A stretch of DNA of 64,000 bases from NCBI RefSeq assembly GCF_042242105.1, contig NC_092019.1:22124828-22188827 (forward strand), given 5' to 3'. The notes under the pieces are model-generated. The model had not been told where the DNA came from and ran no database searches. It was given only the letters and a program-made list of their open reading frames with translations. Shown piece by piece: positions 30,112 to 62,090 of this stretch (its first letter is position 1; each line of letters starts with the position of its first letter). This DNA is from Pempheris klunzingeri. Lineage: Eukaryota > Chordata > Actinopteri > Acropomatiformes > Pempheridae. The position numbers were made by a program, and so were the translations under genes.

Positions 30112-30189
30112 ATGAGTCTTTTCCTCACAGTCTCCTCCTCCTCCTCCTCCTCCAGTTGCAATTCGCTGAGTGTGCAGCAGAGGTCAGCC

Positions 30190-30633
30190 ATGTCCCACAT
30201 CAACGCCACCGAGCTGCAGTCACTCCTGCTCTCCTTCCTGCAGCACTGCCTCAACAGCACGAGCCCGCTGTCTCATGCGACTCCTCAGAACTACACTACC
30301 CAGCAGGCCGCGCACCACGTGGCTGGAGCCAGGGCCCACGCTCAGTCTCAGGGCATGATGTATATCTTTCTGGTGGTTGGCATGTTCAGCTTCTTCACAT
30401 TCGGCATCATGCTCAGCTACATTCGCTCCAAGAAGCTGGAGAGCTCTCACGACCCGTACCACCAGTACATTGCCCACGATTGGGCCAAGGTGATGACTCC
30501 GTCCAGGGTCGTCACTCAGGCTCTGCACAGGGAGGCGGGAGGTAACGGGGCCAGCAGCAAGGAGCCCATCGTCATCTGCAACCCTGGAGCAGCTGCCAGA
30601 CTAGAGGGAGACGCTCAGCTATTCAAACACTGA
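30190..30633 (+). CDS. kcne1: KCNE1-like potassium channel beta subunit
   Basis: KCNE proteins are small single-pass partners of Kv channels; KCNE1 with KCNQ1 makes the slow delayed rectifier. The coding region is one exon, as usual for the family, with 147 residues. Three N-glycosylation sequons (N5, N22, N34) precede a transmembrane helix at about 57-78, which holds the FTF triplet aligning with the KCNE1 activation triplet. [14 protein letters not shown] is nearly KCNE1-identical, but [11 protein letters not shown] resembles KCNE2. I chose the ATG at 30190 because a 3' splice site (CCTCCTCCAG) lies just upstream. The upstream in-frame ATG at 30112 would place the splice tract in coding sequence. 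kcne1 is the best fit; a kcne2 orthologue is the alternative. Confidence 0.85.
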
Positions 30634-32230: not shown

Positions 32231-33197
32231 TTCTGGCACACTCCTGTGGATTTGAAAAACATTATTATTATCGTTATTTTTAACTAGTTAATAGTTTTTT
32301 AAAAAAGTTATAAAAATATGAAATATCTAGCCTGCTCTGTCACTTAAGAGAAATCTTACAGAAATAAACTAAATCTTTTCACCAGGAAGCAATTATGTTT
32401 CACAATAGACCACTAGTAGTACAAATAACCTTAAATAAAGATGGAATAGTTCTGTCAAATTAGCAAGTCAAATAATAAAAGCCTGGTCCAGCTCTGAATA
32501 TCTACTGAACAGGAAGTCTGAGTCATTGCTTGTCACTTTAGGGTTGCAGTTGGATACACTAAAAGGACTAATTCATCCCTCATGTCTGGTGCAGCAGGCC
32601 TGTTTAACTCCCATTGTTTCTCCATTTTCATGAATGTAGGTGCTGGTAGTACATTTTAATAAATATTCACCACATTTCAAAATGAAATGTCACACTTGAC
32701 ATGACGTTCTTTCCTCGCAGGCATCTCTGCTGTATGTGCAGATCTACTTAATATGTTTTCCTCTGAATTGATTAAAGCCCACTGTATAGGAAAGTCTTTA
32801 AGCGTGAAGTCACTTTTCCAGTCACTGAGTGTGCACATTTGATGAAGGTGTCTATTAATGGAAATGATCATAAAGCATTGATATCACAACAAATAAGGTA
32901 ATGATTTCCTCACTCACAGTTTATAATTCTACATTCACGTTCATTTGGTGTTAATCAGACCCCAAAGAGGTCGATAGACAGGATGAGAAATCTAACTTTA
33001 TGTGCCTCACTGTTAATCCACTGGTGGCTAATGGACAACAGCTGCTAAAATTGTGACTTTTTTTTAAATCCTAAAAGTTAAGATCACACAGCTGAATGAC
33101 ACCATCACGAGGGCTCCATAACAAAGCTGATTAGATCCTGTCTCACTGTCACAAATCACTGAAATGAGCAGTGCATGCATTTGAAGGTGTATCTTAC

Positions 33198-33235
33198 CTT
33201 TAATGGTCAGGGCCATCCGGGCTCCACACAGATCA
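33198..33235 (-). other. dnajc28: Predicted 38-nt noncoding exon 2 of dnajc28
   Basis: On the minus strand, acceptor CCTCTGTCTGTAACAG and donor AAAG|GTAAGAT bound 38 nt. It contains an ATG that, spliced to 32243, opens an 11-codon upstream frame whose TGA overlaps the dnajc28 ATG. A first exon ending at 34464 (CAACAAG|GTAAAC) would place the minisatellite in intron 1. Splice-consensus evidence only. Confidence 0.4.
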
Positions 33236-33245
33236 CTGTTACAGA

Positions 33246-34400
33246 CAGAGGTTAGATTATAGTTAGCTGGTACAGGTGTTAGATTATAGTTAGCTGGCAC
33301 AGAGGTTAGATTAAAGTTAGCTGGTACAGAGGTTAGATTATAGTTAGCTGGTACAGAGGTTAGATTAAAGTTAGCTGGTACAGAGGTTAGATTATAGTTA
33401 GCTGGTACAGAGGTTAGATTAAAGTTAGCTGGTACAGAGGTTAGATTAAAGTTAGCTGGTACAGAGGTTAGATTATAGTTAGCTGGTACAGAGGTTAGAT
33501 TATAGTTAGCTGGTACAGAGGTTAGATTAAAGTTAGCTGGTACACAGGTTAGATTAAAGTTAGCTGGTACAGAGGTTAGATTATAGTTAGCTGGTACAGA
33601 GGTTAGATTAAAGTTAGCTGGGACAGAGGTTAGATTAAAGTTAGCTGGTACAGAGGTTAGATTATAGTTAGCTGGCACAGAGGTTAGATTAAAGTTAGCT
33701 GGCACAGAGGTTAGATTAAAGTTAGCTGGTACAGAGGTTAGATTAAAGTTAGCTGGTACAGAGGTTAGATTATAGTTAGCTGGTACAGAGGTTAGATTAT
33801 AGTTAGCTGGTACAGAGGTTAGATTAAAGTTAGCTGGGACAGAGGTTAGATTAAAGTTAGCTGGTACAGAGGTTAGATTATAGTTAGCTGGTACAGAGGT
33901 TAGATTATAGTTAGCTGGCACAGAGGTTAGATTAAAGTTAGCTGGCACAGAGGTTAGATTACAGTTAGCTGGTACACAGGTTAGATTAAAGTTAGCTGGC
34001 ACAGAGGTTAGATTACAGTTAGCTGGCACAGAGGTTAGATTAAAGTTAGCTGGCACAGAGGTTAGATTACAGTTAGCTGGTACACAGGTTAGATTAAAGT
34101 TAGCTGGCACAGAGGTTAGATTAAAGTTAGCTGGCACAGAGGTTAGATTACAGTTAGCTGGTACACAGGTTAGATTAAAGTTAGCTGGCACAGAGGTTAG
34201 ATTACAGTTAGCTGGCACAGAGGTTAGATTAAAGTTAGCTGGTACAGAGGTTAGATTATAGTTAGCTGGCACAGAGGTTAGATTAAAGTTAGCTGGCACA
34301 GAGGTTAGATTAAAGTTAGCTGGTACACAGGTTAGATTACAGTTAGCTGGTACAGAGGTTAGATTATAGTTAGCTGGTACAGAGGTTAGATTATAGTTAG
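33246..34400. repeat. 27-bp minisatellite, about 42 copies
   Basis: Tandem 27-bp units with plus-strand core GAGGTTAGATTAAAGTTAGC. Variants: TAAAG/TATAG/TACAG at one site, GGTAC/GGCAC/GGGAC at another, and AGAGG/ACAGG. Because 27 is a multiple of three, the minus strand stays open as a 9-residue NLTSVPANF repeat for about 350 codons. There is no gene support for that frame. Confidence 0.95.
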
Positions 34401-34463
34401 AGGTTACCGCTGATGAGCCCTGAAGACAAGATGACAGAGAGCTGCTGACCTGTCAGTGTTTAC

Positions 34464-35606: not shown

Positions 35607-36573
35607 CTATCTGGTGTGACCACCATTTGCCTCATGCAGTGCAACACATCTCCTTTGCATAGAGTTGATCAGGTTGTTGATTGTGGCCTGTGGGATGTTG
35701 GTCCACTCCTCTTCAATGGCTGTGCCAAGCTGCTGGATATTGGCAGGAACTGGAACACGCTGTCGTATACGACGATGGGTGACATGTCCGGTGAGTATGC
35801 TGGCCATGCAAGAACTGGGATGTTTTCAGCTTCCAGGAATTGTGTACAGATCCTTGCGACATGGGGCCGTGCATTATCATGCTGCAACATGAGGTGATGG
35901 TCGTGGATGAATGGCACAACAATGGGCCTCAGGATCTCGTCACGGTATCTCTGTGCATTCAAAATGCCATCAATAAAATGCACCTGTGTTCGTTGTCCAT
36001 AACATACGCCTGCCCATACCATAACCCCACCGCCACCATGGGCCACTCCATCCACAACGTTGACGTCAGCAAGCCGCTCACCCACACAACGCCACACACG
36101 CTGTCTGCCATCTGCCCTGAACAGTGAAAACCGTGATTCATCCGTGAAGAGAGCACCTCTCCGACGTGCCAGACGCCATCAAATGTGAGCATTTGCCCAC
36201 TCAAGTCGGTTACGACGACGAACTGCAGTCAGGTCGAGACCCCGATGAGGATGACAAGCATGCAGATGAGCTTCCCTGAGACGGTTTCTGACAGTTTGTG
36301 CAGAAATTCTTTGGTTATGCAAACCGATTGTTGCAGCAGCTGTCCGGGTGGCTGGTCTCAGACGATCTTGGAGGTGAACATGCTGGATGTGGTTACACGT
36401 GGTCTGTGGTTGTGAGGCCGGTTGGATGTACTGCCAAATTGTCTGAAACGCCTTTGGAGACGGCTTATGGTAGAGAAATGAACATTCAATTCACGGGCAA
36501 CAGCTCTGGTGGACATTCCTGCAGTCAGCATGCCAATTGCACGCTCCCTCAAAACTTGCGGCATCTGTGGCAT
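35607..36573 (-). pseudogene. Broken Tc1-like transposase
   Basis: It begins [20 protein letters not shown], followed by an HTH stretch ([20 protein letters not shown]). A central piece carries VMVWAGVCYG and an LQHDNARPH segment holding the second catalytic Asp. After AYSPDMSPI the frame shifts: the short segment that should hold the third catalytic acidic residue appears deleted (near 35775). The original frame resumes as RRIRQRVPVPANIQQ and ends at 35607. More than one frame change separates the N-terminal and central parts, so it cannot make active transposase. Confidence 0.85.
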
Positions 36574-39678: not shown

Positions 39679-41126
39679 ATGGATCCCAGAATTGTTCAAG
39701 AGGTGCTGGATCTCAGAATGCACAAGCGTTATCCCGAAGGTTTAACCAGCAAAGATACATTTGTTAAGAGAAGAGTTGACACCTTCAGGATCAAGGGTAA
39801 AAACGCATGCCATATAGACTTTAGAAGACTGTCTGCTCTGGTATAACTCACAACAAACCTAATAATGACATTGAAACACCAGATGGAGACCTCCACTACA
39901 TCTGTAGGCACAAGAGATATAGGTCAGAGCACCTAGCTAAAGTCACTTCAACTGCAGAGGCAAAGACCATCTTCGAAGAGTTTCACTCCAGCCATTTAGG
40001 GGGACACTGGTGCGGTGAAAACGCATGGTGCAATCATCACCCGGTATTATTGGCCCGGCATGGAGGAAGATATTCAAAAGTTGATGAGTTGGCCACATTA
40101 GAATTTGACTTAATGGAGCACAAAGGAGAGTAATGTGCAGTTTTTGCGGTTATGGGAAGCCTCTGAATGTAACACTAAAGTAATGTTCTGCAGCCTTCCT
40201 GGGCTGATTCGACGATGCCTGCTGACATTGTGCACTTAAAAGCCTGCCATTAGTTTGCAATATGAGCAATAATTGATAGTAACATATTTGTCATAATGTT
40301 TGTGTGCCGCTGTCCCCAGTGCTGATCAAAGAGAGCCAGTATTAAAAAGAAAAGTGCGAGTACAACCCAATTGAGCTAAAGGAAAGAGTGGCATACATTG
40401 CCAGCTTCCGAACACACAGTGATACAACACTTGAGTCTGTTATCTGTCCATCATCTTCCCAGGTCGGGGGACTGACCTAGTGGGAAAACTCAAACAGATG
40501 GTGGCAACCAGTACATGTGTCGTGGTGGATTATTTCACCAAATGGGCAGAGGCCTACCCACTAAAGAGTAAAACAGCAGATGAGGTGACTGTATACTGTA
40601 CTGATTGTATACTTGATTTCTTTTACAAATTTGGTGTACCTAAAGCCTGCCAACAGACCAGGGCTCAGAGTTCTACAGCCTGTGTGAGGCTTGGGATTAA
40701 AAGAAGCCTCTGTGCACCTTACCATCCCGAGACAAAAGGCCTTGTAGAGAGACTAAATGGCACGATACAGAGGTACATTGGGTTTTTAACACTTCTAGAT
40801 TTCACAGAACATTTACATTTCCTCTATCTGAACATGTGAAGTACTGACACCGTTTTATTGTACCTCAAAACCCAAGTTCTCTCCTGCTTCTTCATGCCCG
40901 TACTTGATTTCTGCATTTTAAGAAAAAAAAAAAAAAAAAAAAAAAAAAAGGTCCCTCAACAAAATGGTGGCTGATAAAGTGGGACCCATTTCTACAATCC
41001 ACAATGTTTGGCCTTCACAGGAAAAAAGCAGTTGACAACCAAATACAGCTCCTACTATTTGATGTTTGGGATGGAGGCAAGGTATCCATCAGAAGTTCCA
41101 CTCAAGTATGAAGTAAGGTTCTCATC
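39679..41126 (+). pseudogene. Gypsy/GIN-type integrase pseudogene
   Basis: Pieces in several frames follow the order of a retroelement-type integrase. A start region (MDPRIVQEVLDLRMHKRYPE) has a perfect GCCACCATGG context. A broken zinc-binding region (FEEFHSSHLGGH, then WPGMEEDI in another frame) follows. A core at 40480-40839 has VVDYFTKWAEAYPLKSK and LCAPYHPETKGLVERLNGTI, and a C-terminal piece reads LMFGMEARYPSEVP near 41060-41100. Stops, frameshifts and a 29-bp A-run (40921-40949) interrupt it. It resembles the gypsy-derived GIN/KRBA2-like integrase genes of vertebrates; whether this copy was a host gene or a retroelement cannot be told. Confidence 0.75.
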
Positions 41127-44208: not shown

Positions 44209-44472
44209 TCACAGCCTCTGCATCAGGTCGTTCCTGTTTATTTTCTTGAAAATGTTCTTGGTCACCTCCACAGACTGTTGTCCGTAGGTCTGCAGCATCA
44301 GATCCACCAGGTCCAACACGTCACTCTTCTCCAGTTGCCCTGCTGAGATGCAGGGGAGGCCCGTCCCGATGTCACAGTCCTGCAGGAACCACTTGAATTC
44401 TTTGAGTTCCTCCGGTTTCAAATCCTTCAGCGTTTTCAGAAGCCTCTCTCTGTCTGTTGTTATTGTTACTGC
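44209..44472 (-). CDS. PYD8, terminal pyrin exon
   Basis: Acceptor GAATCCATCAG at 44473, then 87 codons: DRERLLKTLKDLKPEELKEF ... SVEVTKNIFKKINRNDLMQR-L, stop. It would be the effector PYD of the C-terminal UPA-PYD fragment. Past the TGA the sequence still matches the 3' end of PYD7 up to an intact donor (CAAAG|GTGAGT at 44187). Confidence 0.85.
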   Translation of the reverse strand, partial: AVTITTDRERLLKTLKDLKPEELKEFKWFLQDCDIGTGLPCISAGQLEKSDVLDLVDLMLQTYGQQSVEVTKNIFKKINRNDLMQRL

Positions 44473-47400
44473 CTGATGGATTCAGAGTGAGCAAACAAAG
44501 GGATATGAGTTCACTATAAGTTTGGTTTGCTGCACAGTTTAAATATTGGATTTCAAGTCTGCATTCAGAGTGATGTGACAGTACTCACTTTCATCCCTGC
44601 AGATAGGAGTTCATCCTCACAATATTTCTCTGAGGAAAAGAGGAAGAAAGCATTTTGTATCAGGCTATTTTGATTCATGAAGACCTACAGTACAAACAAT
44701 AGTAATAATAGTTTCTGTGCTTCCAACAAATTGAACAGAGCGATACGCCTTCTGTCTTGCACACTGCAACAAGCTGAATGTAAAATTCTAAATCAAAGGT
44801 TGGTGTAACAGTTTTTCTGCACTGCTTCACGATCAGAAACTCACTGTCAATTGAACCCTGTTTGGTGGATTGTCCATCCGACTCTTGCGCTACAAAAATG
44901 AGCATACACAAAATTCAGCTTTAAAAGAATAGTTTAATTTAGGACTTGAATGACATAAAAGTAGTGAAAATATAATTGACACTGCATCCTGGTAAAACCA
45001 AACACTGTGTCTTGAAAACAACTGTGAAAATCTTGAAATCCAGATAGTGCGTAGTAGGAGTATTAACATAGTGCATACATTAAGGTGATGAAGTATGGGC
45101 AGTCCTACATTTTCATAACCAAGATTATCTGAGTATTCAGTCAACTTTAACTTTCAGGAAACATACAAACTTTAATACGTTCACATTTTTGCAGTGTACC
45201 TACCTCCTACTAGAGCACCACAGTACAGTTCAGTTGATGATTCTGTAGCTGAAGTGAAACGACAGAGATGCAGATATTATTGTAGAAGACAAAAATACTA
45301 CAGTGGGCTAGCCAAAGCCCAGTTCAGTGATCAGCAGCAACTATATAACACTGCTGTCACGGTGATGTAGTAGACAGAGGCTGATTTTTTATTGAACAGG
45401 AACATTACAGTGTATTCATGTAAATACTCAGTTCCACACTACTATAATCATACTGCAGTATCTTACCTTCTAAATGAGCAGAGTTTCGGTAGTCATCTGA
45501 AGTTTTAAAAAAAAAAGGAAGGTAACAAAGGTAGTAAATTATTTCTCAATGCATTTGGTCCCTTTTCTCTCATATAACACTGTAGCTGCTGCAGGGAGGG
45601 ACCTCACATCACTAATATTTCAATTACAGGAGAAAGTAGTAGTTGTGTGTACGGTAAGTCACGGTTGGGAACAAGTTTTCCCTGATTATCAAGTATCAAA
45701 TGGAAGGAAAGCACATAAACTAATTGCTCCAATCAGATTATTACACAGAGCAGCAAGTTATTTCTTTAATATGCTTTGGTGTTTGGATATAAAGTGTGTT
45801 TTGTCCCTCTTTCACCTATTATTGACATCTATTAATTGAAGGGAAAAGACTTGAAGCTTGAGGCAGAATACATCAACTTTTTTTATATAGGGCAGGTAAT
45901 ATTGTTTAAAAACCACTGACCTTTTCGAATTTCACAGGTCCATACTGGTTCACACAATGTTCCACCCTTATTTGTGCAAAGTTGTGAGAGCGTGAGGTGG
46001 AAGTTTCTCTCTGGATTCTCGATGTACACTTCGTAGAAATTTGGGTCTTGGCTATCATATCTGAGAGTTATTTTCTGTGTAAAAAAATAGAAGCGGGAGA
46101 GGAGTTAGTAATAGAGTGAATACTAAAACTCTACAACACATTGTGCAAACCTACATGTATCATGGAGATTTTCTGGGGCAAGCGAGGTCTTGTCATTAGA
46201 ATATACAGGTTTCTGGGCTCACTGCAACCTAAACATGACAGCCTGAATTATGTTTTTATAGAATGATTGTGTTTACCAACCCTGTCACCAGCTCTTGCAG
46301 CCAAACAACCAGCCTGGCCCACCAGAAACTGCCCTGTGTCTCTCCATGAGCCACTCTGTGCCTGAGTAAGATGTAATGCACTGTTGGGCCTTCACCAGAA
46401 AATGGTGGAAACTACAAGTTTCTGTGTCTTTTGAACAAAGACATCCCTCTCTGCACTCAGTCTCCCAGAGTCCTTAAGTTTTCACACATACGTGCTAAAC
46501 GCACCCCTGGACTCAGCTTTACAGTCACCATTGGCCAGTGTGTGACACATGATCCTACAACCTCAGGTCAACAAAACCAGAGCTACCTGATGTTAGTTTG
46601 CTCACACTGACACAGGGTCTTGCATGCAGCTAACCATCCCTTCCTAACCTGGCACCTTCATCCTACACACTTACAAATACAGTGTGTAGGATTATTGGTG
46701 CCCCAGAGCACTGTGCACAACAGCAGCCACTCACGCCTCTGTAAGGCTCTGTCAGTCTAGTGTGATAATATTTCCAATAAATATTGTGGTTGGACAGATT
46801 TGTGAGTTGGCTGCTGAGCTCCATGCGCCTCAAGTGTTAGCAGCCCAGTTGATTAACATCAGTATGTGTCCCTAGCTTAAGATGTATCATGTTATAGTTG
46901 CTGTTGATAGTTGGAATGAAGGTTGAATGTTATCTAGATTGTGCTGGACCAGTAGACGGGAATGGTTGATTGAAATTCACACACAGCCTTGCATTTGCTG
47001 TGATCCCTACAGTACCTTAAATATGTCTGAATTACAATTCACTACAAACCATCTAACTCAAAGGCCGGCTTTGTATTATTGTCAGTCAGCAGTTGAACAA
47101 ATGAGAACGAGAAACCTGGCCTGTGAAGCACACATACATTTGCTGCTACGTTGTACTGAGAACCTTGAATTTGTCTCATGGATTATAGAAAGTCACCCAA
47201 CTCCGTTTTAAATGTTTCAAAACCAGGAAGAGCCAGGAGAGTGAAATGTGCACAGAATGACAACTCAAACTGTCACTGAGTTTTTCTTTGTGTGTTGGTT
47301 CCTATGCCAAAACAAACACTCTGTCACAATGTTTTTGCTCCTGGTATAAAATTCAAATGCCTGTGGATATCTTAGTCAGTCAGATCCTGATTTTTTCACT

Positions 47401-49791
47401 GTGTAAGCTGCGCATGCCACACACACTGTCCAGCGTGTTTGCCGCCTTTGTCTTCCAGGGAATCCCGTGTTACATACTTAGATTTAATTACTGATGGACA
47501 GAAAAAAATTTACCTTTGGTAGAATTTTTGCTGCATCTATGTTTGCTGTGAGGGTGAAACCCTGATGCATTTTCAGGTACTTGTCGGGCCGTGGCTTCGA
47601 TTGGATTACTTTGTATCCTTCAGAGAGTTCCTTCTCGTGCACTGTCTGGAAAAAAGGCACATGAGGCACAGAGCTGCTTCAGGGTTACAGTAGCAAACAT
47701 AGTTATCTGTATTTTAAAGTACGTTCGTGAATGTACTGAGAATCTTTAACAGTATGAATCTTGTCATGTTATGTTTATTTGACAGTAAGATATTTAATAA
47801 CCTGTTTTAGAGCAGGATCAAGCGGGATCATGTAAACATGGAGTTTGAGGAATGGCGTGTTGGGTTTATAGTAGATTAAGACAATACATCTGATTTTCAC
47901 AGGAAAGCCGATTTTCATCAAAACTGCTCGTGGAGAAAAAAGTGGTTCAGACAGCTTGGCATGGGCTGATGTGACCTCAGCCGCTTTTTCCACAACATCT
48001 CCACAGTCATCGATGTGTAGGACTGCAAACTTGTCTGTTATTTCAGGGTTGTCATCTGTGCAAAGTACAAGTACATACACATTAATGAGGAGAACAGTGT
48101 TGCATAAATGTTTTTATACACATATTATCCAACACTAATTAAGTCCACTTACCTATGTAGATCCAGTGTGGCAGGTACACTTCATCAAACTTTCCAGCAA
48201 TGACTATGATGTCAATTAGGGGGCCTGCAGGCATGTATTCGATGCTTTCCATCCTCTCCATGTGTTCCCCCCAAGAGAAATACTGGTACCTAAAGCTGAC
48301 TTGTTCCTTACAGACCCAGCGCAAGCCAGAGACACAGCATTCAAAGCTTCCTGCTTCAGACTGTAGGCTAAGTCATGGAAAAGAGAATGTCTGTCTTGAG
48401 TTTATTTGGTGTAAAGTGTATTGCCACATTATTGTCGTGTTGCATTGGTGCAGCAAGCTTAAACTGTGTGCTATAGCTCCAGTTTGCTGTGACAAAGTAT
48501 TCAGGATGTTATTTTTACCTGTAAGTTGCATCTGTACTGTTCACTTCAGGTCCAAGTTTAGTCCAGTCATTGGAGTCCTGCTGCAGAGGACAATCATTTG
48601 AAACAAATAAATGGAGAGTTTCTTTTTGCAACACCACCTGAATGAACAAATAAATGGAATAAATGAATGAATGAATGAAAGGGATTACCATCATGCTTCC
48701 ACAACCCTCAAGTTCCAAGCTTCTTGAAGGCCCTTGTGAGGACACATTGGAATTAGTTTTAAATGATGTTATGTTGATATACAAAATCATATGGTAATTT
48801 GAAGTATTCACATATGTAATGGCTGTTGATGCTGCAGTCCTGCTTTATGGAGTGCATTGGCATTCACTGCATTAACCAGGTTACTCAGAGAAAGCAGATT
48901 AAGCTGATTATCAAAGAATACATGAGAGAATGAGTCAGTCTGTACCGATCGATCCTGTCAGCTGTCACTCAGCAGTCACTTTCCCTGTCTGAAGTATTTT
49001 GTCCTGTACAAGTGTGCCTGTAAAAAGCACGTTAGAAACATGACCCCCACAGCTTCAGGTCAATATATGCAGAGTTCCCCCACTGCCCTTTCTCTCTTTT
49101 GGAGGGTCCAGCCCCGGGTCCATCTCCAGGCCTGCAGCTTTCTCCTCCAGCTCCAGCCTCAGTGAGGTCTGTACCAAGCAGACCACCTTTTTCAAAGCAG
49201 CAACACAAAGTACTGCCTGAACCGAGTTTATTCAGGTACGACCGGGCGCCTCCAGCCTGAAACCATGACATCGCAATACAAAGACCAGCTTTTCACTGCA
49301 GATCCACAAACCTTCTTCCCACCGGGCTCATCAACAGATTTGCCAGTTAAGAAAGCAGCACAGTGAGGGACCTCTTTCTCTTCTCTTTAAGGACGGGTAA
49401 CAAACTCTAACTGGGCATACATAGCATAGCATAACTGTTTACATGGCTATGTTTAACCTTGTTAATGTATTGGTTTTGATTTGCTTTTGATTTGCTTTTA
49501 TGTCGTTTTAAGTCATTTAGTTTGATTATCCTGCTGTATTGTTGGTTTACTGTGGAGCCATAAAGTTATGTTGATGTTATCTCTGGTCACAGGCAGAGGG
49601 TCTTCCATGCAACTCATCATCCTTTCTTAACCAAGCACCTTTATCCTACACACTCACATATAAACCAATGTAAGTTGGCCTTCCGAGAGACAAAACAGTT
49701 CACAGGCTTGGGCCTTTGTTTACCTCTGACCCACACACCACAGGTTTTTGCAGGCTTTTGTAGACCTCCATCTTCCCTTCGTTTGCATATT

Positions 49792-49887
<96 letters not shown>

Positions 49888-52800
49888 ACACACACTTTTT
49901 TCTGCACCAGAATGTAATGTGCTAGCAATGCAGTTTCACTGAGTGAAACAATACTGTAACGAAGAGTCGGTTTACTTTTTTCACTTTCACTTAATGGAAA
50001 TGTTTTGCGTTGCTGTAGCGCATTTGGCACTGAAACTTCTGCAAACACACAAATCCAAATGGCTGCCTGACTGTCCGCATGTATTTTGACTTGAGAAAAA
50101 AAGTAAATGTTATGTTGGAATAATATTTTCAATATTTACCTTTGGATGCTGAGCTGGTGTCTGACAGCCTCTGCACCAGATCTCTCCTGTTCATCTCCTT
50201 TAAAACCTCTATGGTCACCTCCACAGACTGTTCGCCATAGATCTCCACCATCAGATCAGCTATTTCAGCTCTGTGTGCCATCTCCATTGGGATTCTCGGG
50301 AGGCCTTTTTTCTTAACTTTAGAGTACAGCAGGACATGCTTGAATTGTTCGAGCCCCCCATAACTTAGATTTTCCAGTGTATCCAAAAGCTTCTTCTTAA
50401 CGGATGTCATGGGTTCCTGATGGATTCAAAATGATCAGAGAACATTTAGTAATATTTCCACTGTAGTGATCACACATTAATTTCTTTGCATCAATGTAAA
50501 TTCATGAGAGATGAGAAAGTCAAGAGAATATTGTAACACCTAACATTAACCACATTAGGTACTATGAGACATTTGGTGTGATCAGATTCTAAAGGTCATA
50601 TGTATGATGGTAAATGGTCTGTACTTGTATAGCTCCTTTCTAGTCATTTCGACTACTCAAAACACATTAAACATTACATTAAAACTTCATTCCCCCATTC
50701 ACACAACATTCATACGGGAGGAATTTAAGATGGAGGAGACTATTCTTTCACACACATTCACACATGTGGGGTAAGTTGGGGTTCAGTGTCTTGCCCAAGG
50801 ACACCTCCTGATTGATGGATAATGTAGCAGAAAACAGCTGCATTGTCACATACTGTCATGTCCCGTCGTATTTGTTAAGTTTGTCTAGTTCACTCATGCC
50901 TAGTCTTGTCTCCCACTTCCTGTTTTATTGCTAAGTCTAAACTCTCCTCTCGTTTCAGGCTGTTTGACTTCCTGCCCTTGTGTGTTTCCCACTGTTGATT
51001 GTCTGCCCCGCCCTAATTGTTTCCACCTGTCACCCATTATCTAATGTATAAATAGTCTGCGTCTCCCCTTGTCCTGTGCCCGATCGTCTTGCTCACATCC
51101 AGGCGTTCAAAGTGGTTCAGCTAAGAGAGGTGGTCAGTCAGCAGATGTGTGTGTTCTATAAACTTTCTATTTGTATTTGTGCTTTTTTGACTTTTTTGTC
51201 TCTTGCCCCTATTTCAATGGTCTATAGTCTAAAGCGGTGTTTCTCAAACATGGTGGTGGGGGCCCACTGCCCTGCAGGTTTTAGACGTTTCTCTGCTCCA
51301 ACACATGTAATTCAAATGGGTGGGACTTCTTCAGGCTTTTGCAGAGCTTGATGACAAGCTGATCATTTGAATTGAAAGTGCATGGCACAAGCATGTAAGG
51401 TGCATTTAAGGCGTTACCAACTCCACTCCACTCCATTCCACCACGCATAATCTAGGAAAAAAGTAAGTTTTAGTCTCTTGACTAATCGTGGGTGTGTTTG
51501 GGGCGTAAAATGAATTAAATCAGAGTGTCATCTCCCATTCTATTTAAAAGCCAGCTGCACTGCTATTTCAATGGTGGACACAAACATGGTTCTTGGCCAG
51601 TGGACCCTCTACCCCTGCCGTTTCCCAATCCTCTGTCCCATCAGTAACTCCATTTAACTGCATACAGTATGAGCAAATGCATACTGAGGAGGAGGAGCAC
51701 TGCTGCACATCCGTTCTGCTTCACATAATTTAAAAATTGGTGGTGGAGGGATGATTCATGCAGTTTAGATATTTTCAGACCCTCTTTGCATTGGGTGTAA
51801 GATAGGGATCTTTGCTACCAAAAGCAGGAATGAGCCACCTGTTTACATGATCTTTTCTACAGTTAAATGTGAAGTTTGAAGTTTTACTGTCAAGATGAGA
51901 AGAATTTGTTTTACAATTAAATGAAAGCTGTGCTGTTTAATGTCTGTCTGGTGTAACGTTACTCACTTTCTGGAGCAGGTCAGACTGATGTTTCTCTGAG
52001 GAGAAAGAAAATAGAAAATGACATGACATGATTCAGAATCAGTTCACAGACAACTTTAGTCAGATTTAACTGCTTGTGAATGAAACGTGACATGAAAGAA
52101 TACCTGCCTAATAGCACTAAAATCTGCTTGGTCACAGACAAAGACACCATGTCAGTAACACCCATTGAATCTAAACAACAATACAAAAGCCCTGCAACAA
52201 ATATTGCCTTTGTAAAGACTATTATGTTCAAACATTGTCAAAATATATCCCTCATGTCAGAGAGGTGCTGATTCAAGTCAATGTAATTTTTAATTTTAAT
52301 TTTTCTTTTGGCCTTGATGCACTGTATTGTACTATAAACTGCACCAAATATTTTGCTCTTCCTAAATAAGGTTCAGTTGCAGTTCTGCTATCTACAACTG
52401 ATCTGGTCACGCAGGGTAAACAACAACAGATTCCTGTTCTAACCATGTGGGTTTGGTGGCTGAGTTGTTTAGATCAGGGCCTTTCACCAAGGTGGACAGG
52501 GTTTGAATCCCACGTGAGACCAATAGTAAATCATATATCAACTCAGTAGAGACATCATGAAAGTCAAAGAGGCTGGATTCAACTCTGTGATTTCTGCAGT
52601 CAAAGTAATGAATGTGTTGTTGCACTGTGATCAGACTGACTCTCTCCTACAGTGCATGTGACAGTCATCTTCCTCATCTTACCTTTGGGTCCAGGGCTGC
52701 TTTCTGGCAGCTTCTGCAACAGATCAATCCTGTTCATGTCCTTTAAAACCTCCTTGGTCACCTCCACAGACTGCTGGCCGACCATCTCCACCATCACATC

Positions 52801-55800
52801 CACCAGTTCTTCTGTGCTGTTTACCCTCATGTGTCGTTCCCATGGCATGCTTGAAAGGCCCCTCTTGAAGAACGTGAACCTCAGAAACCACTTGAAGTTG
52901 TTCAGCTCTTTATGACTCAAATCACTGAGTGTATCCAAAAGCAGCTCTTTAACGGCCGACATTGTTGCTACCTGAAATAATCAATACATGTAACATATAT
53001 GGAACATATATTTAATTGCAATTCAAATACAAATGTCTTTTTGCATCTCATCAATGTAAGTGTGGACTTGGATGTTTCTGCTATACCACACGAGGAAGAG
53101 ATCTGATTTGGTAATTACTGTGACATTTATAACTGCATGTTCATTTTTTAATGATTGGTTAGTTTGTGATTTTTATTATTTTGGAAAACACAAAGCACAA
53201 AGCAAAGATGACTGTACCCTTTAATTGTTAGAGACTTTTTTATAATTTTTTTCTTTGAATTCACCTGTTGCAATTCTTCTCTCAAACACTGAAATGAGTC
53301 GCAGTGGTTCAAAGACACCATTTTCCTTATTTCAAGTTTTAAATTTTGTTCACTGCTTTGAAAAATGGTTTACAGTACAATACATAGAGGTTTCTGATGG
53401 ATACATTTCTCTATACTAGTGAAGAAAAAAGCAGGAGAAAAGCATATGCTGACATTTCCTCATCTCATCCTCAGTGGTAAAGACATCAGATCACTACAGT
53501 TAGATTAAAGTACTGCTAAAGAGCTCCACCTGAATGCAGCATCAGATCAGTGAAAAATAAATCATGAGTTTGAGTCGTATCATTGTTTAAAATGTTCAAG
53601 ATGACGACAGTTTTTAACCTGCGTCTGATGAATGAAAACTGTGTTGCATGAAGTCAGAGAAATGTGGCATTACTTACTCTCAGGATCAGTGCAGACTGAT
53701 GATCATCTGCAGAGTGTTTCTCTGAGGAGAGAAGTGGAATAAATGGCAGACTGATCTAACATCAGACAATAAACACGACTATCAGGCAATACTGCTTTGT
53801 ACACGTTCATAATGCACAACATGCTACCTCCTAATCAGTGACATATAAATAATCATTTTCACCTCCTCTCAAACCCTTTTTTCATATTTCACATTAGTCA
53901 TTGAATACATTTTGTACACTAGACGATGTGTTTTCTTTTGTCTACATTATAAATACTACTTAAAATGGTAAGAGAAGGAGACAAAGCTTATAGTCATAGA
54001 AGACATGGACTATTTTTATGATTCTAACATGTTTTTGTCTTTATTGTCTTACGTTTAGGTGCTGAGCAGTCGCCTGACAGCCTCTGCACCAGATCAGTCC
54101 TGCTGATCTTCTTTAAAGCCACCTTGGTCACCTCCACAGACTCTTGGCCGAGGATCAGCATCATTAAAAACACTATCTCCTGCATGTCTGTTTTCATGAG
54201 CCACCATGGGAAGTCAACGTGACGTCTATGGAGACGAACTGAACTCTTGAAGACCTCCTTGAATCTATGCAGCTCCTCGTTACTCAGATCAGCCAGAGTT
54301 TCCAAAAGCAGCTCTATAACAGACGCCATCGTTTCCACCTGGTGAATTCAAAGGAAATGTTCGTGGAACAAAAGTGCAATTTCTCAGCTGAGATGCTGAC
54401 AGATTTTTCTGTTCACATCTCATCAAAGTACATGTGTGTTTATAAATGTGGATGTGATAAGGGTCCATTAGCCACAACACACAAGGTAATAATAAGGTAA
54501 TAATATTTGTCCGATTGATCGCATGTGCCTGTCTTTTGTGAACCACCTGGATGTCTATACATTTCTTTAGCATCACTGTTGTCCTCTTTCACAGTTGTTT
54601 TATTTCTGTTAACAGGTTCATGACTTTTATGTCTTTACAGGCCTAAGACGTTCCTCATGTGAACAGACAATACAAACTGAACCCTAAACTAAAATATGAT
54701 TAATTGAGTCGATTTATTTTCTGTTGATTGATTCATTATTTCAGCTTAAGTTTACAGTCAGACAGATGTGACATCACTCACCTTCAGGATGGGTGCAGGC
54801 TGATGTTCATCTACAGAGAGTTTCTCTGAGGAGAAAGGAAATATAAATGATTGATTGATTTAACACCAGGTTTTACAATCAGACGCTGTCAGACTGTAAG
54901 AATTCTAATATTAAGGATTCATTGCAAAATCAACAGAAAATCTACTTAATAACAGCATCAAAATAATCAATAACCAGTTTCACCTGATAAACTCTTCATG
55001 TCATTTTATTTCTAAGATGAAAGACAGCTAACTCTGTGATGCTATTAAATACTATTAACCAGTAACCATGTATATATTTCATTATTCATTGTTATTTCAT
55101 CAGGACAGACTGATGTGACAGTCATCTTCCTCATCTTACCTTTGGGTCCAGGGCTGCTTTCTGACAGCCTCTGCAACAGATCAATCCTGTTCATGTCCTT
55201 TAAAACCTCCTTGGTCACCTCCACAGACTGCTGGCCGGCCATCTCCACCATCACATCCACCAGTTCTTCTGTGCTGTTTACCCTCATGTGTCGTTCCCAT
55301 GACATGGTTGAAAGGCCCCTCTTGAAGAGCGTGAAGCTCAGAAACCACTTGAAGTTGTTCAGCTCTTTGTGACTCAAATCACTGAGTGTTTCCAAAAGCA
55401 GCTCTTTAACGGCCGACATTGTTGCTACCTGAAATAATCAATACATGTAACATATATGGAACATATATTTAATTGCAATTCAAATACAAATGACTTTTTG
55501 CATCTCATTAATGTAAGTGTGGACTTGGATGTTTCTGCTATACCACACGAGGAAGAGATCTGATTTGGTAATTACTGTGACATTTATAACTGCATGTTCA
55601 TTTTTTAATGATTGGTTAGTTTGTGATTTTTATTATTTTGGAAAACACAAAGCACAAAGCAAAGATGACTGTACCCTTTAATTCTTAGAGACTTTTTTAT
55701 AATTTTTTCTTTGAATTCACCTGTTGCAATTCTTCTCTCAAACACTGAAATGAGTCGCAGTGGTTCAAAGACACCATTTTCCTTATTTCAAGTTTTAAAT

Positions 55801-58413
55801 TTTGTTCACTGCTTTGAAAAATGGTTTACAGTACAATACATAGATGTTTCTGATGGATACATTTCTCTATACTAGTGAAGAAAAAAGCAGGAGAAAAGCA
55901 TATGCTGACATTTCCTCATCTCATCCTCAGTGGTAAAGACATCAGATCACTACAGTTAGATTAAAGTACTGCTAAAGAGCTCCACCTGAATGCAGCATCA
56001 GATCAGTGAAAAATAAATCATGAGTTTGAGTCGTATCATTGTTTAAAATGTTCAAGATGACGACAGTTTTTAACCTGCGTCTGATGAATGAAAACTGTGT
56101 TGCATGAAGACAGAGAAATGTGGCATTACTTACTCTCAGGATCAGTGCAGACTGATGATCATCTGCAGAGTGTTTCTCTGAGGAGAGAAGTGGAATAAAT
56201 GGCAGACTGATCTAACATCAGACAATAAACACGACTATCAGGCAATACTGCTTTGTACACGTTCATAATACACAACATTCTACCTCCTAATCAGTGACAT
56301 ATAAATAATCATTTTCACCTCCTCTCAAACCCTTTTTTCATATTTCACATTAGTCATTGAATACATTTTGTACACTAGACGATGTGTTTTCTTTTGTCTA
56401 CATTATAAATACTACTTAAAATGGTAAGAGAAGGAGACAAAGCTTATAGTCATAGAAGACATGGACTATTTTTATGATTCTAACATGTTTTTGTCTTTAT
56501 TGTCTTACGTTTAGGTGCTGAGCAGTCGCCTGACAGCCTCTGCACCAGATCAGTCCTGCTGATCTTCTTTAAAGCCTCCTTGGTCACCTCCACAGACTCT
56601 TGGCCGAAGTTCAGCATCATTAAAAACACTATCTCCTGCATGTCTGTTACCATGAGCCACCATGGGAAGTCAAAGTAACGTCTACGGAGACGAACTGAAC
56701 TCTGGAGGACCTCCTTGAATATATGCAGCTCCTCGTTACTCAGATCAGCCAGAGTTTCCAAAAGCAGCTCTGTAACAGACGCCATCGTTTCCACCTGGTG
56801 AATTCAAAGGAAATGTTCGTGGAACAAAAGTGCAATTTCTCAGCTGAGATGCTGACAGATTTTTCTGTTCACATCTCATCAAAGTACACGTGTGTTTATA
56901 AATGTGGATGTGATAAGGGTCCATTAGCCACAACACACAAGGTAATAATAAGGTAATAATATTTGTCCGATTGATCGCATGTGCCTGTCTTTTGTGAACC
57001 ACCTGGATGTCTATACATTTCTTTAGCATCACTGTTGTCCTCTTTCACAGTTGTTTTATTTCTGTTAACAGGTTCATGACTTTTATGTCTTTACAGGCCT
57101 AAGGCGTTCCTCATGTGAACAGACAATACAAACTGAACCCTAAACTAAAATATGATTAATTGAGTCGATTTATTTTCTGTTGATTGATTCATTATTTCAG
57201 CTTAAGTTTACAGTCAGACAGATGTGACATCACTCACCTTCAGGATGGGTGCAGGCTGATGTTCATCTACAGAGAGTTTCTCTGAGGAGAAAGGAAATAT
57301 AAATGATTGATTGATTTAACACCAGGTTTTACAATCAGACGCTGTCAGACTGTAAGAATTCTAGTATTAAGGATTCATTGCAAAATCAACAGAAAATCTA
57401 CTTAATAACAGCATCATAATAATCAATAACCAGTTTCACCTGATAAACTCTTCATGTCATTTTATTTCTAAGATGAAAGACAGCTAACTCTGTGATGCTA
57501 TTAAATACTATTAACCAGTAACCATGTATATATTTCATTATTCATTGTTATTTCATCAGGACAGACTGATGTGACAGTCATCTTCCTCATCTTACCTTTG
57601 GGTCCAGGGCTGCTTTCTGACAGCCTCTGCAATAGATCAATCCTGTTCATGTCCTTTAAAACCTCCTTGGTCACCTCCACAGACTGCTGGCCGGCCATCT
57701 CCACCATCACATCCACCAGTTCTTCTGTGCTGTTTACCCACATGTGTCGTTCCCATGGCATGGTTGAAAGGCCCCTCTTGAAGAACGTGAACCTCAGAAA
57801 CCACTTGAAGTTCTTCAGCTCTTTGTGACTCAAATCACTGAGTGTTTCCAAAAGCAGCTCTTTAACAGCCAACGTTGCCATCTGGAAGCAAGTAATAGTA
57901 ATCCAAGTAAAATATGATATTATATGAAATATCATATTTCACTGTGTTCATCAAATGAATAAAAGCTGCCCTGTGTAAACTCAGAGTGATGTGACACTCA
58001 CTTTCTGGGTCCCTGAAGGTTTCTGCTCAACTAAAGAGTGTTTCTCTGAGGAGAAAAGAAATAGTAAAAGGCCTTTTAGTAATATTGATTTTTACATAAT
58101 AAAATGTAAAATGTACATTTTCACATATCTCCGTCTTCTTTGCCTTACCTTTGGCTCCTGAGCTGGTGTCTGACAGCCTCTGCACCAGATATCTCCTGTT
58201 CATCTTCTTTAAAACCTTTTTGGTCACCTCCACACACTCTTGGCTGTACGTCTCCACCAGCAGCTCCACTATGTCCTCTGTGTTTGCCACTTTCAGTTGC
58301 CTCCTGGAGGAGGCTGGGAAACCTCTCTCCAGTTTAATGAGCGACTTGAATTCATCAAACTCCACGAAACTCAAATCATTCAGCATTTCAGAGAGCATCT
58401 TCTCAGCCGACAT
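44209..58413 (-). CDS. Multi-pyrin FIIND protein: PYD x7 - FIIND - PYD (NLRP1/CARD8-like, no NACHT/LRR)
   Basis: Coding exons: 58413-58149, 58045-58002, 57881-57596, 57281-57238, 56794-56509, 56177-56134, 55428-55140, 54825-54782, 54338-54053, 53721-53678, 52971-52683, 51995-51967, 50416-50140, 48732-48689, 48580-48519, 48367-48153, 48055-47802, 47645-47514, 46074-45921, 45496-45467, 45248-45204, 44889-44845, 44629-44589, 44472-44209. All are GT-AG and in phase, totalling 3,513 nt (1,170 residues). PYD exons are phase 0 to 1 and linker exons phase 1 to 0, so each pair is a symmetric module. PYDs assemble inflammasome filaments; a FIIND self-cleaves in NLRP1 and CARD8. Every PYD exon also carries its own ATG, so shorter products or several genes remain possible. 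Linker 7 (48732-48689) is the least certain join between array and FIIND, yet has the usual 44-nt length and phase. Inflammasome sensing is inferred. Confidence 0.82.
44589..45496 (-). CDS. Short linker exons between FIIND and PYD8
   Basis: Four small exons: 45496-45467 (DDYRNSAHLE), 45248-45204 (TESSTELYCGALVG), 44889-44845 (QESDGQSTKQGSID) and 44629-44589 (KYCEDELLSAGMK). Phases run 1-1-1-1-0, so the first three can be skipped individually without breaking frame, which allows linkers of several lengths. The last resembles the linker exons of the PYD array. Confidence 0.7.
45921..48580 (-). CDS. FIIND (ZU5-UPA) exons with F|S self-cleavage motif
   Basis: Exons 48580-48519, 48367-48153, 48055-47802, 47645-47514 and 46074-45921 encode about 272 residues (758-1029). 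The ZU5 half has FECCVSGLRWVCKEQVSFRY, then EYMPAGPLIDIIVIAGKFDE and VYLPHW. Residues 888-893 read LFSPRA, aligning with the Phe|Ser-Pro cleavage site of NLRP1 and CARD8. His863 (FAVLHIDD) sits where the essential His is expected. The UPA half has VLIYYKPNTPFLKLHVYMIP and QSKPRPDKYLKMHQGFTL. This is a complete-looking FIIND; cleavage itself is inferred from family knowledge. Confidence 0.88.
49795..49895. repeat. (CA)n microsatellite, about 100 bp
   Basis: Long CA run with a single break near 49887, in the intron between PYD7 and linker 7. Confidence 0.96.
50140..50416 (-). CDS. PYD7 exon
   Basis: Reads EPMTSVKKKLLDTLENLSYG ... EIADLMVEIYGEQSVEVTIE ... EMNRRDLVQRLSDTSSASKG. Divergent from types A and B; its 3' end matches PYD8. 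It joins linker 48732-48689 (PSRSLELEGCGSMM), which leads into the FIIND. Confidence 0.8.
50605..50830. repeat. Dispersed teleost repeat
   Basis: TGGTAAATGGTCTGTACTTG, ATAGCTCCTTTCTAGTC and CATTCCCCCATTCACACA resemble an abundant fish interspersed repeat; family from memory, edges approximate. Confidence 0.5.
52683..52971 (-). CDS. PYD6 exon (type A)
   Basis: Type A pyrin, VATMSAVKELLLDTLSDLSH ... KDMNRIDLLQKLPESSPGPK. Left edge of the tandem duplication. The following linker exon 51995-51967 is shorter than the others (29 nt, KHQSDLLQK) but keeps phase 1 to 0. Confidence 0.85.
54053..54338 (-). CDS. PYD5 exon (type B)
   Basis: Type B pyrin, VETMASVIELLLETLADLSN ... RLHRRHVDFPWWLMKTDMQE. 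Linker exon 53721-53678 is base-for-base the same as that after PYD3. Confidence 0.85.
55140..55428 (-). CDS. PYD4 exon (type A)
   Basis: Type A pyrin, VATMSAVKELLLETLSDLSH ... FLSFTLFKRGLSTMSWERH. Duplicate of PYD6 with about nine base differences, eight of them replacing residues. Linker exon 54825-54782 is identical to that after PYD2. Confidence 0.85.
56509..56794 (-). CDS. PYD3 exon (type B)
   Basis: Type B pyrin: VETMASVTELLLETLADLSN ... DFPWWLMVTDMQEIVFLMML ... EALKKISRTDLVQRLSGDC. Ends in phase 1 at CCTAAAC|GTAAGA. Linker exon 56177-56134 (KHSADDHQSALILR) follows. Duplicate of PYD5, with about 12 base differences, all changing amino acids. Confidence 0.85.
57596..57881 (-). CDS. PYD2 exon (type A)
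   Basis: Starts ATGGCAACGTTG right at the acceptor. Type A pyrin: VKELLLETLSDLSHKELKNF ... STEELVDVMVEMAGQQSVEV ... RIDLLQRL. Partial third copy of the 2.46-kb duplication. At several replaced sites it agrees with PYD6 rather than its neighbour PYD4. Linker exon 57281-57238 (KLSVDEHQPAPILK) follows. Confidence 0.85.
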
Positions 58414-58422
58414 GGTTTCTAC
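58149..58422 (-). CDS. PYD1 exon with start codon
   Basis: Acceptor AACTTTCCAG, then GTAGAAACC and the ATG at 58413. Encodes MSAEKMLSEMLNDLSFVEFD and onward to KKVLKKMNRRYLVQRL, the six-helix pyrin pattern with an EVTKKVLKKMN-type helix 5-6. It is divergent from the A and B types, so probably an older module. Linker exon 58045-58002 (KHSLVEQKPSGTQK) follows. Confidence 0.85.
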
Positions 58423-60117: not shown

Positions 60118-62090
60118 TAACACTGTTTAACACTGTTTAACACTGTGTGAAACTGTTTAACACTGTTTAACACTGTTTAACACTGTTTAACACTGTTTAA
60201 CACTGTGTGAAACTGTTTAACACTGTTTAACACTGTTTAACACTGTTTAACACTGTGTGAAACTGTTTAACACTGTGTGAAACTGTGTGAAACTGTTTAA
60301 CACTGTTTAACACTGTTTAACACTGTGTGAAACTGTTTAACACTGTTTAACACTGTGTGAAACTGTTTAACACTGTTTAACACTGTTTAACACTGTTTAA
60401 CACTGTGTGAAACTGTTTAACACTGTGTGAAACTGTGTGAAACTGTTTAACACTGTTTAACACTGTGTGAAACTGTTTAACACTGTTTAACACTGTGTGA
60501 AACTGTTTAACACCGTTTAACTCTGTTTAACTCTGTTTAACACTAATACTGCGTGAAACTGTTTAACACTGTTTAACACTGTTTAACACTGTGTGAAACT
60601 GTTTAACACTGTTTAACACTGTGTGAAACTGTTTAACACTGTTTAACTCTGTTTAACACTGTTTAACACTAACACTGTTTAACACTGTGTGAAACTGTTT
60701 AACACTGTTTAACTCTGTTTAACACTGTTTAACACTAACTCTGTTTAACACTGTTTAACACTAACACTGTTTAACACTGTGTGAAACTGTTTAACACCGT
60801 TTGACACTGTTTAACTCTGTTTAACACTGTTTAACACTAACACTGTGTGAAACTGTTTAACACTGTTTAACACTAACACTGTGTGAAACTGTTTAACACT
60901 GTTTAACTCTGTTTAACACTGTTTAACACTGTGTGAAACAGTTTAACACCGTTTGACAGTGTTTAACACTGTTTAACTCTGTTTAACACTGTTTAACACT
61001 AACACTGTGTGAAACTGTTTAACACTGTGTGAAACTGTTTAACACTGTTTAACTCTGTTTAACACTGTTTAACACTGTGTGAAACTGTTTAACACTGTTT
61101 AACACTGTGTGAAACTGTTTAACACTGTTTAACACTGTGTGAAACTGTTTAACACCGTTTGACAGTGTTTAACACTGTTTAACACTGTTTAACTCTGTTT
61201 AACTCTGTTTAACACTGTTTAACACTAACACTGTGTGAAACTGTTTAACACTGTGTGAAACTGTTTAACACTGTTTAACACTGGTTAACACTGTGTGAAA
61301 CTGTTTAACACTGTTTAACACTGTGTGAAACAGTTTAACACCGTTTGACAGTGTTTAACACTGTTTAACACTGTGTGAAACAGTTTAACACCGTTTGACA
61401 GTGTTTAGCACTGTTTAACTCTGTTTAACACTGTTTAACACTAACACTGTGTGAAACTGTTTAACACTGTGTGAAACTGTTTAACACTGTGTGAAACTGT
61501 TTAACACCGTTTGACAGTGTTTAGCACTGTTTAACTCTGTTTAACACTGTTTAACACTAACACTGTGTGAAACTGTTTAACACCGTTTGACAGTGTTTAA
61601 CACTGTTTAACACTAACACTGTGTGACACTGTTTAACTCTGTTTAACACTGTTTAACACTGTGTGACACTGTTCAACACCGTTTGACAGTGTTTAACGCT
61701 GTTTAACACTAACACTGTTTAACACTGTGTGAAACTGTTTAACACCGTTTGACAGTGTTTAACACTGTGTGAAACTGTTTAACACTGTTTAACACCGTTT
61801 GACATTGTTTGACACTGTTTAACTCAGTGTAACACCGTTTGACACTGTGTGACACTGTTTAACACTGTTAAACACTGTTTAACTCTGTAAAACTCTTTTA
61901 AACTCTATTAAACTCTGTCTAACACTGTCTGACACTATTAAACTCTGTTAAACCCTGTTAAACTATGTTGAACTCTGCCTAACACTGTCTGACACTATTA
62001 AACTCTGCCTAACACTGTCTGACACTATTAAACTCTGCCTAACACTGTCTGACACTATTAAACTCTGTCTAACACTGTCTGACACAGCCT
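60118..62090. repeat. Decamer minisatellite, about 2 kb
   Basis: Nearly 200 copies of a 10-bp unit in two main versions, TGTTTAACAC and TGTGTGAAAC, with rarer TCT and CCG variants and AACACT spacers. The left ~400 bp is almost pure; the right end decays into TTAAACTCTG and TCTAACACTG forms. Confidence 0.96.

Follow-up and report, generated by a model that had tools for sequence, protein, structure and literature searches.

What might a row of pyrin domains (PYDs) do in front of a FIIND, in a protein that also ends in a PYD? FIIND sensors are best studied in mammals, where NLRP1 and CARD8 carry CARD effectors. The gene that raises the question lies on the minus strand of a 64,000-nucleotide (nt) stretch of Pempheris klunzingeri DNA (the window, within which all coordinates below are positions), and encodes seven array PYDs, a FIIND and an eighth PYD in one reading frame. 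We think that its product is probably a FIIND inflammasome sensor that would work by functional degradation in the manner of NLRP1 and CARD8, with the pyrin array as its front end and a UPA-PYD fragment as its effector. This reading is built on sequence and on analogy with the mammalian sensors.

The final model comprises 24 minus-strand exons (58422-44209), joined in one frame to give 1170 amino acids followed by a TGA stop codon (44211-44209). An earlier note on this DNA gave the span as 44209-58413, which is correct from the stop to the ATG (58413-58411). The open stretches of all eight PYD exons pass the Pfam cut-off for PYRIN (E 5.7e-07 to 2.3e-23), with the array units covering the profile nearly end to end, and the same scan detects FIIND in two exons, one of which also matches UPA-FIIND. 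In the joined protein, Pfam detects eight PYRIN stretches (1.3e-109), FIIND (PF13553, 7e-36) and UPA-FIIND (PF23679, 4.6e-22), and neither NACHT nor LRR at E<=0.01. The C-terminal domain is PYRIN (2.3e-23), not CARD. Both the separate exons and the joined translation thus confirm the architecture that the earlier note had read from the assembly, seven PYDs, FIIND and PYD without NACHT or LRR. The repeated module pairs a PYD exon, entered in phase 0 and left in phase 1, with a short downstream linker exon that leads from phase 1 back to phase 0 (44, 44, 44, 44, 44, 29 and 41 nt for linkers 1 to 6 and 8, and 44 nt for linker 7). As these modules are symmetrical, entire units can be added or skipped while the frame is kept.

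That array and FIIND belong to one gene, as the earlier note had proposed, is supported at the annotation level. One annotated protein of P. klunzingeri, P0005 (949 amino acids, named "isoform X2"), has five PYDs, a FIIND identical to that of the window and a final PYD. When linker 4, PYD5, linker 5 and PYD6 are removed from our model, P0005 is reproduced letter for letter, so that the annotation places PYD1-4, PYD7, FIIND, UPA and PYD8 in one transcript, which speaks against separate genes. The claim of seven array PYDs stands for the assembly, where the 24-exon model contains them all, but not for this annotated protein. A homology search with the FIIND region returned 287 proteins at E<=0.001, of which the best 120, P0005 included, make up the list used here; another search, with PYD5-PYD7, returned 249, again with the best 120 listed. 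No isoform with all seven array PYDs is present in either list, and P0005 is again the sole P. klunzingeri protein among those listed for the array query. P0005 represents a cluster of three sequences, one of which was compared, and a longer isoform may be found within this cluster. The exon skip in P0005 may reflect genuine splicing, an allele of shorter length, or the mapping of reads to near-identical exons. Because the listed proteins include no full-length isoform and a unit of 2.46 kb is repeated at 98.5% identity, a copy number of seven is less sure than the architecture. The exons of the model and the repeated segment are as follows.

58149..58422, minus strand, PYD1 exon: start ATG 58413-58411, phase 0 to 1, PYRIN 6.4e-16, splice sites
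58002..58045, minus strand, linker exon 1: 44 nt, phase 1 to 0, splice sites, in P0005
57596..57881, minus strand, PYD2 exon: PYRIN 4.8e-15
57238..57281, minus strand, linker exon 2: 44 nt, splice sites
56509..56794, minus strand, PYD3 exon: PYRIN 1.1e-09
56134..56177, minus strand, linker exon 3: 44 nt, splice sites
55140..55428, minus strand, PYD4 exon: PYRIN 3.2e-14
54782..54825, minus strand, linker exon 4: 44 nt, splice sites, absent from the annotated isoform
54053..54338, minus strand, PYD5 exon: PYRIN 5.7e-07, absent from the annotated isoform
53678..53721, minus strand, linker exon 5: 44 nt, splice sites, absent from the annotated isoform
52683..52971, minus strand, PYD6 exon: PYRIN 4.1e-16, absent from the annotated isoform
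51967..51995, minus strand, linker exon 6: 29 nt, splice sites
50140..50416, minus strand, PYD7 exon: PYRIN 5.3e-18
48689..48732, minus strand, linker exon 7: 44 nt, conserved GPSRSLE.E.CGS.M, P0005 match
48519..48580, minus strand, FIIND exon 1: joined model, P0005 match
48153..48367, minus strand, FIIND (ZU5) exon 2: H845, FIIND 1.5e-23
47802..48055, minus strand, FIIND exon 3: H863, E872, predicted cut F889/S890 and UPA start, FIIND 2.7e-08, UPA-FIIND 6.8e-07
47514..47645, minus strand, UPA exon 2: UPA-FIIND 4.6e-22 in the joined protein
45921..46074, minus strand, UPA exon 3: joined-protein scan
45467..45496, minus strand, UPA-PYD connector exon a: 30 nt, joined model
45204..45248, minus strand, UPA-PYD connector exon b: 45 nt, joined model
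44845..44889, minus strand, UPA-PYD connector exon c: 45 nt, joined model
44589..44629, minus strand, linker exon 8: 41 nt, same kind as the array linkers
44209..44472, minus strand, PYD8 exon: conserved, predicted terminal effector PYD, PYRIN 2.3e-23, stop TGA 44211-44209
52656..57877, minus strand, recent tandem copy: 57877-55113 against 55421-52656, 98.5%, period about 2.46 kb

Splice scores had placed linker 7 at 49017-48980, a candidate ruled out by P0005 and the consensus of the family in favor of the real exon at 48732-48689. The domain scan of the joined protein and the FIIND homology search were run on the model with this earlier linker 7, of which the domain results are independent; the query for the search of the Protein Data Bank (PDB) was part of the same model, beginning one residue later.

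The earlier note had proposed a search of other percomorph genomes for PYD arrays next to a FIIND, and proteins of this kind are widespread in related fishes. At least three PYDs precede a single FIIND in 106 of the 120 listed proteins, which come from 47 species (entries are clusters at 90% identity, with isoforms and paralogs of one species counted apart). Twelve of the 120 have more than one FIIND match and were excluded from the counts of architectures, residues and array lengths. The 108 with one match end in a PYD (47), a CARD (55) or neither (6), and the corresponding numbers for those with at least three PYDs are 46, 55 and 5. CARD was confirmed by Pfam in all four tails tested. PYD-ending and other forms occur side by side in 11 of the 47 species, and the number of array PYDs reaches 13 among the proteins listed for the FIIND query and 14 across all 296 collected proteins. 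PYD-array FIIND proteins are thus a large and largely unnamed set in the databases, accompanied by a sister form with a CARD end. We take the species in this list of long proteins to be percomorphs; the list of short proteins (best 120 of 154) includes Centroberyx gerrardi, which is presumably outside this group. The listed relatives are annotated as "uncharacterized protein", "NLRP1 homolog" or "NLRP1b allele 2-like". The suggestion that the architecture had not been described therefore holds in part: we found no account of tandem PYDs with a FIIND in the titles and abstract openings of the papers listed from the open-access literature (subscription papers and preprints lie outside this scope), but the architecture is not specific to this locus and is already present in databases under placeholder or NLRP1-like names.

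Some listed proteins deviate from the common pattern. Among the 120 listed for the array query, only P0284 and P0296 (from Acanthochromis polyacanthus and Oreochromis aureus) are PYD-rich without a FIIND match, through real loss or cut gene models. P0016 and P0022 end in a PYD and have their best CARD match near the N-terminus (residues 118-200 and 17-97, respectively), with two CARD stretches in P0016. P0194, a protein of 693 amino acids from Epinephelus coioides, combines PF00656, which we take to be the caspase domain, with FIIND, UPA-FIIND and CARD, and is either a fusion of sensor and protease or a joining of gene models.

The FIIND matches NLRP1 (7crw, 1.8e-24, the best match) and CARD8 (7jkq, 1.1e-19) in the PDB. 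Self-cleavage of CARD8 has been reported to depend on S297, F296, H252, H270 and E279 (PMC3210808), and the equivalent residues, numbered through the PDB alignment, are all present here as S890, F889, H845, H863 and E872. They are also conserved among the 108 listed proteins with a single FIIND: the equivalents of H252, H270 and F296 are found in all 108 and that of E279 in 107, and the position of S297 is occupied by serine in 102 and by threonine in 6 (P0031, P0077, P0078, P0082, P0111 and P0115). We infer that the protein cleaves itself between F889 and S890. The predicted fragment downstream of this cut consists of UPA and PYD8 and has 281 amino acids. Since the residues reported as necessary in CARD8 are present, the release of a UPA-PYD fragment, as envisaged in the earlier note, is a sound expectation.

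What the array does is suggested by its recent history. The segment 57877-55113 is repeated at 55421-52656 with 98.5% identity, so that PYD2, linker 2, PYD3 and linker 3 correspond to PYD4, linker 4, PYD5 and linker 5. The two copies differ at 11 of 1820 bases outside exons and at none of 88 bases in linkers 2 and 3. PYD3 and PYD5, however, differ at 12 of 286 bases (Fisher exact test against the introns, P 1.1e-5), and all 12 differences are nonsynonymous and none synonymous, where 1.34 and 0.38 would be expected at the intron rate (Poisson P 2.1e-8). Between PYD4 and PYD6 there are 8 nonsynonymous and 1 synonymous differences, and each of the related exons PYD2, PYD4 and PYD6 has private changes. 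In a raw comparison, 30 of 857 PYD bases differ versus 11 of 1820 intron bases (Fisher 6e-8). Pooling of the pairs 3/5, 4/6 and 2/4, with the first five codons of PYD2/4 omitted as misaligned by an indel, gives 25 nonsynonymous and 2 synonymous differences (P 1.7e-12 with the intron rate itself and 1.7e-7 with its upper 95% bound), a count that is not independent, as PYD4 enters twice and exons of the PYD2 and PYD6 types may already have been different when the copy arose; PYD3/PYD5 is for this reason the one pair on which we base the claim of selection. The excess of amino acid changes points to diversifying selection on the array. Relaxed constraint is no sufficient cause, as it cannot exceed the neutral rate. 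Such changes could, however, have been brought in by gene conversion from a relative that had diversified earlier. The notion of the earlier note that the tethered PYDs may be baits gains real support from these changes. Of the 11 amino acid positions at which PYD3 and PYD5 differ, 7 fall between helix 2 and the short helix 3 (by our placement of the helices). The same loop is the most variable region in the array PYDs of PYD-ending genes, with entropies of 2.30 for first, 2.23 for last and 3.08 for middle PYDs, the latter value being inflated by the mixture of paralogs in the middle group; it is also the most variable region of the terminal PYDs, but at a lower level (1.54).

The longer history of the domains separates the terminal PYD from the array. 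We compared 202 PYDs in a midpoint-rooted tree, from the window and from 25 other proteins chosen for about one isoform per gene and for species spread. Matches shorter than about 50 residues were kept out, so that the 18 PYD-ending genes yielded only 17 terminal PYDs. All 17, PYD8 included, are in one clade of 18 (support 0.835), together with a single array PYD from Acanthopagrus. Mean pairwise identity between species is 53.2% for terminal PYDs, compared with 39.1% for first, 43.2% for last array and 42.7% for middle PYDs (in the identity and entropy comparisons, the window contributes only PYD2 and PYD3 to the middle group). Of the middle PYDs, 50 of 133 have their nearest relative within their own protein, compared with 5 of 26 among the first PYDs, 6 of 26 among the last and none of the 17 terminal ones; the contrast is in part a product of numbers, as each protein contains many middle PYDs and a single one of every other kind. 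PYD1 has its closest relatives among the first PYDs of other fish species, and PYD7 mostly among their late array PYDs; PYD2, PYD4 and PYD6 are closest to one another, and so are PYD3 and PYD5. First PYDs do not all group together (14 of 26 in the best clade). We read these patterns as suggesting that the ends of the array are older and that its middle has been renewed within lineages. The PYD8 exon retains, past its stop codon, the tail and splice donor of an array exon (...CTGTCAGACACCAG... in PYD7, ...CTGTGAGACACCAG... in PYD8, tail 44212-44186 on the minus strand). This donor is strong (score 12.0, 22 nt beyond the stop, last base 44187), so that the terminal PYD looks like a former module of the array type.

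Together, these observations suggest the following model. The FIIND would cut itself at F889/S890, as its conserved residues indicate, and the two halves would stay together. The fast-evolving N-terminal array may be the sensing part, a tripwire or lure for pathogen proteases, ubiquitin ligases or PYD-binding antagonists, a role supported by the diversifying selection and the lineage-specific amplification. Damage to or degradation of the N-terminal half would then free the UPA-PYD fragment of 281 residues, much as the loss of the N-terminal half frees UPA-CARD in mammals (PMC8081665). UPA makes the CARD filaments of NLRP1 and CARD8 form at a lower threshold (PMC7794386); by analogy, the UPA of the fragment would oligomerize and its PYD would nucleate ASC through PYD contacts, giving rise to ASC PYD filaments and caspase activation. 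In the sister form, a CARD would take the place of the PYD as effector. More tentatively, we consider it possible that the percomorph proteins as a whole are a family of self-cleaving sensors, with the pyrin array as a renewable, diversifying lure or tripwire aimed at PYD-targeting factors of pathogens and with a conserved, releasable UPA-PYD or UPA-CARD effector, in which array units are amplified by unequal crossover at the level of exons and diversified by positive selection.

Several observations weigh against this model. The residue before the phenylalanine of the predicted cut is leucine, not the serine of the mammalian SF/S motif, and in the relatives it is mostly valine or isoleucine, with serine in 6 of 108. 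The sensing role of the array is deduced from evolution only, and at one locus. Within exons, the 12:0 ratio for PYD3/PYD5 is only borderline given the proportions of sites (about 0.05), as is the pooled 25:2 (0.054), the comparison of exons with introns being the strong test; moreover, PYD5, which bears the strongest signal of selection, is missing from the annotated isoform. The changes between PYD3 and PYD5 are not concentrated at the filament contacts of AIM2 (positions as given in PMC4646227), which account for 2 of the 11 changed residues. Three more of the changed residues belong to a loop without a counterpart in the aligned AIM2 sequence. The other pairs show no enrichment at these contacts either, with none of 8 changes in PYD4/6 and one in PYD2/4, within the misaligned start.

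The array may also have been misread. If PYD4-PYD5 were an allelic copy misplaced in tandem, the true chromosomal array would have five PYDs, exactly the number in the annotated isoform, where PYD4 is joined to linker 6. The failure to find a form with PYD5 and PYD6 among the proteins listed for the two queries fits this explanation, and we judge the intron divergence of 0.6% to be plausible for alleles. However, the contig of P0005 has 28.9 Mb, and reads in assemblies of this class usually, in our judgment, span 2.5 kb. The exon breakpoints are also compatible with ordinary unequal crossover between exons of the PYD2 and PYD6 types, although a misjoin would look identical. We regard an inflated array as rather doubtful, if a serious contender, and the signal of selection would hold regardless, as allelic divergence. 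There is very little chance, in our opinion, that the PYD exons represent alternative first exons, or small genes of their own, ahead of a FIIND-PYD gene. In-frame ATG codons near the start of each of the exons PYD1-7 would permit such an arrangement, and short FIIND-PYD (16) and PYD-FIIND-PYD (9) proteins are annotated elsewhere, among those of P0121-P0234 with a FIIND match. But the PYD8 exon has no such ATG, phase-compatible linker exons lie between all PYDs, P0005 links PYD1-4 and PYD7 to FIIND and PYD8, and at least three PYDs are joined to one FIIND in most of the listed relatives, as described above.

Granted that the array is part of the protein, it could serve something other than sensing. 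Seven tethered PYDs might be a pre-formed seed or amplifier of ASC filaments, freed or exposed by FIIND cleavage. Recruitment of ASC through PYD contacts is established for other sensors, and the array units fit the PYRIN profile over almost its entire length. A filament seed should, however, keep its contact surfaces, yet conservation is lower in the array PYDs than in the terminal one, and they change fastest in the recent copies, although these changes are not concentrated on the AIM2 contacts. Furthermore, all 55 CARD-ending proteins among the 108 keep an array of at least three PYDs, which means that the array does not set the type of effector. We consider a seeding role unlikely. Still more improbable in our estimate is a negative regulator whose tethered PYDs would sequester ASC or the PYDs of NLRPs and so dampen inflammasomes. 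Pyrin-only proteins are known regulators (PMC7555848) and provide a precedent, but a pure sponge would need neither the conserved self-cleavage residues nor the separate conserved terminal PYD, which indicate a releasable effector. A degradation-triggered sensor with a pyrin array at its front thus remains the model that we favor.

The surroundings of the gene contain a long tandem-repeat block just upstream of its 5' end (60118-62085), whose shifted self-matches have about 76-87% identity. The interferon-response motif GAAANNGAAA occurs 5 times in the window versus 4.3 expected, which is no excess. A KCNE-type potassium-channel subunit gene (30109-30630, plus strand; PF02060, 9.6e-21) and a DNAJC28-like gene (31082-32287, minus strand; PF09350, 5.6e-21) are neighboring genes. 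The window also contains two transposon remnants, one with a DDE_3 endonuclease (35672-36178, minus strand; 4.4e-10) and one with a weak integrase-core match below the cut-off (40435-40836, plus strand). An open frame of 462 amino acids at 33067-34452 (minus strand) consists of NLTSVPAN-type repeats and looks like a minisatellite rather than a gene; Pfam gives only whole-protein scores for DUF6470 and SpaA_4, with no single stretch passing.

If the model is right, the tandem pyrin array would be a modular counterpart to the ligand-binding end of NLRs, and PYDs would serve as a sensing surface besides a signaling one. From a widespread fish family that swaps PYD and CARD effectors, one could learn how a design triggered by degradation is retuned, and the fish proteins would be natural constructs for testing what the N-terminus of a FIIND sensor senses. 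Among known systems, CARD8 resembles the window protein in having a FIIND without NACHT or LRR, the same self-cleavage residues, and a C-terminal UPA with a death-fold effector; it differs in its unstructured N-terminus of about 160 amino acids and its CARD effector (PMC11760013), in place of which we find a PYD array and a PYD. NLRP1 is the best FIIND homolog (1.8e-24) and shares the Ser-Pro start of the predicted C-terminal fragment, whereas the window protein has several PYDs instead of one and lacks NACHT, LRR and the C-terminal CARD. Fish NLRP1 is outlined in a review as NACHT-LRR-FIIND-CARD without PYD (PMC9978379); according to a survey of metazoan NLRs, fish NLRPs combine NACHT and LRRs with either a PYD or an unknown domain, and some of them also have FIIND-CARD (PMC11508797). 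PIDD1 and UNC5 likewise have ZU5-UPA followed by a death-fold domain, and PIDD also cleaves itself (PMC3210808), but neither is among the 36 PDB matches (E<=0.001) and their effector is a DD, not a PYD. The annotated percomorph FIIND proteins with at least three PYDs before one FIIND have the same architecture, with a PYD or CARD end, and differ only in array length and sequence. It is with these proteins that the window gene belongs.

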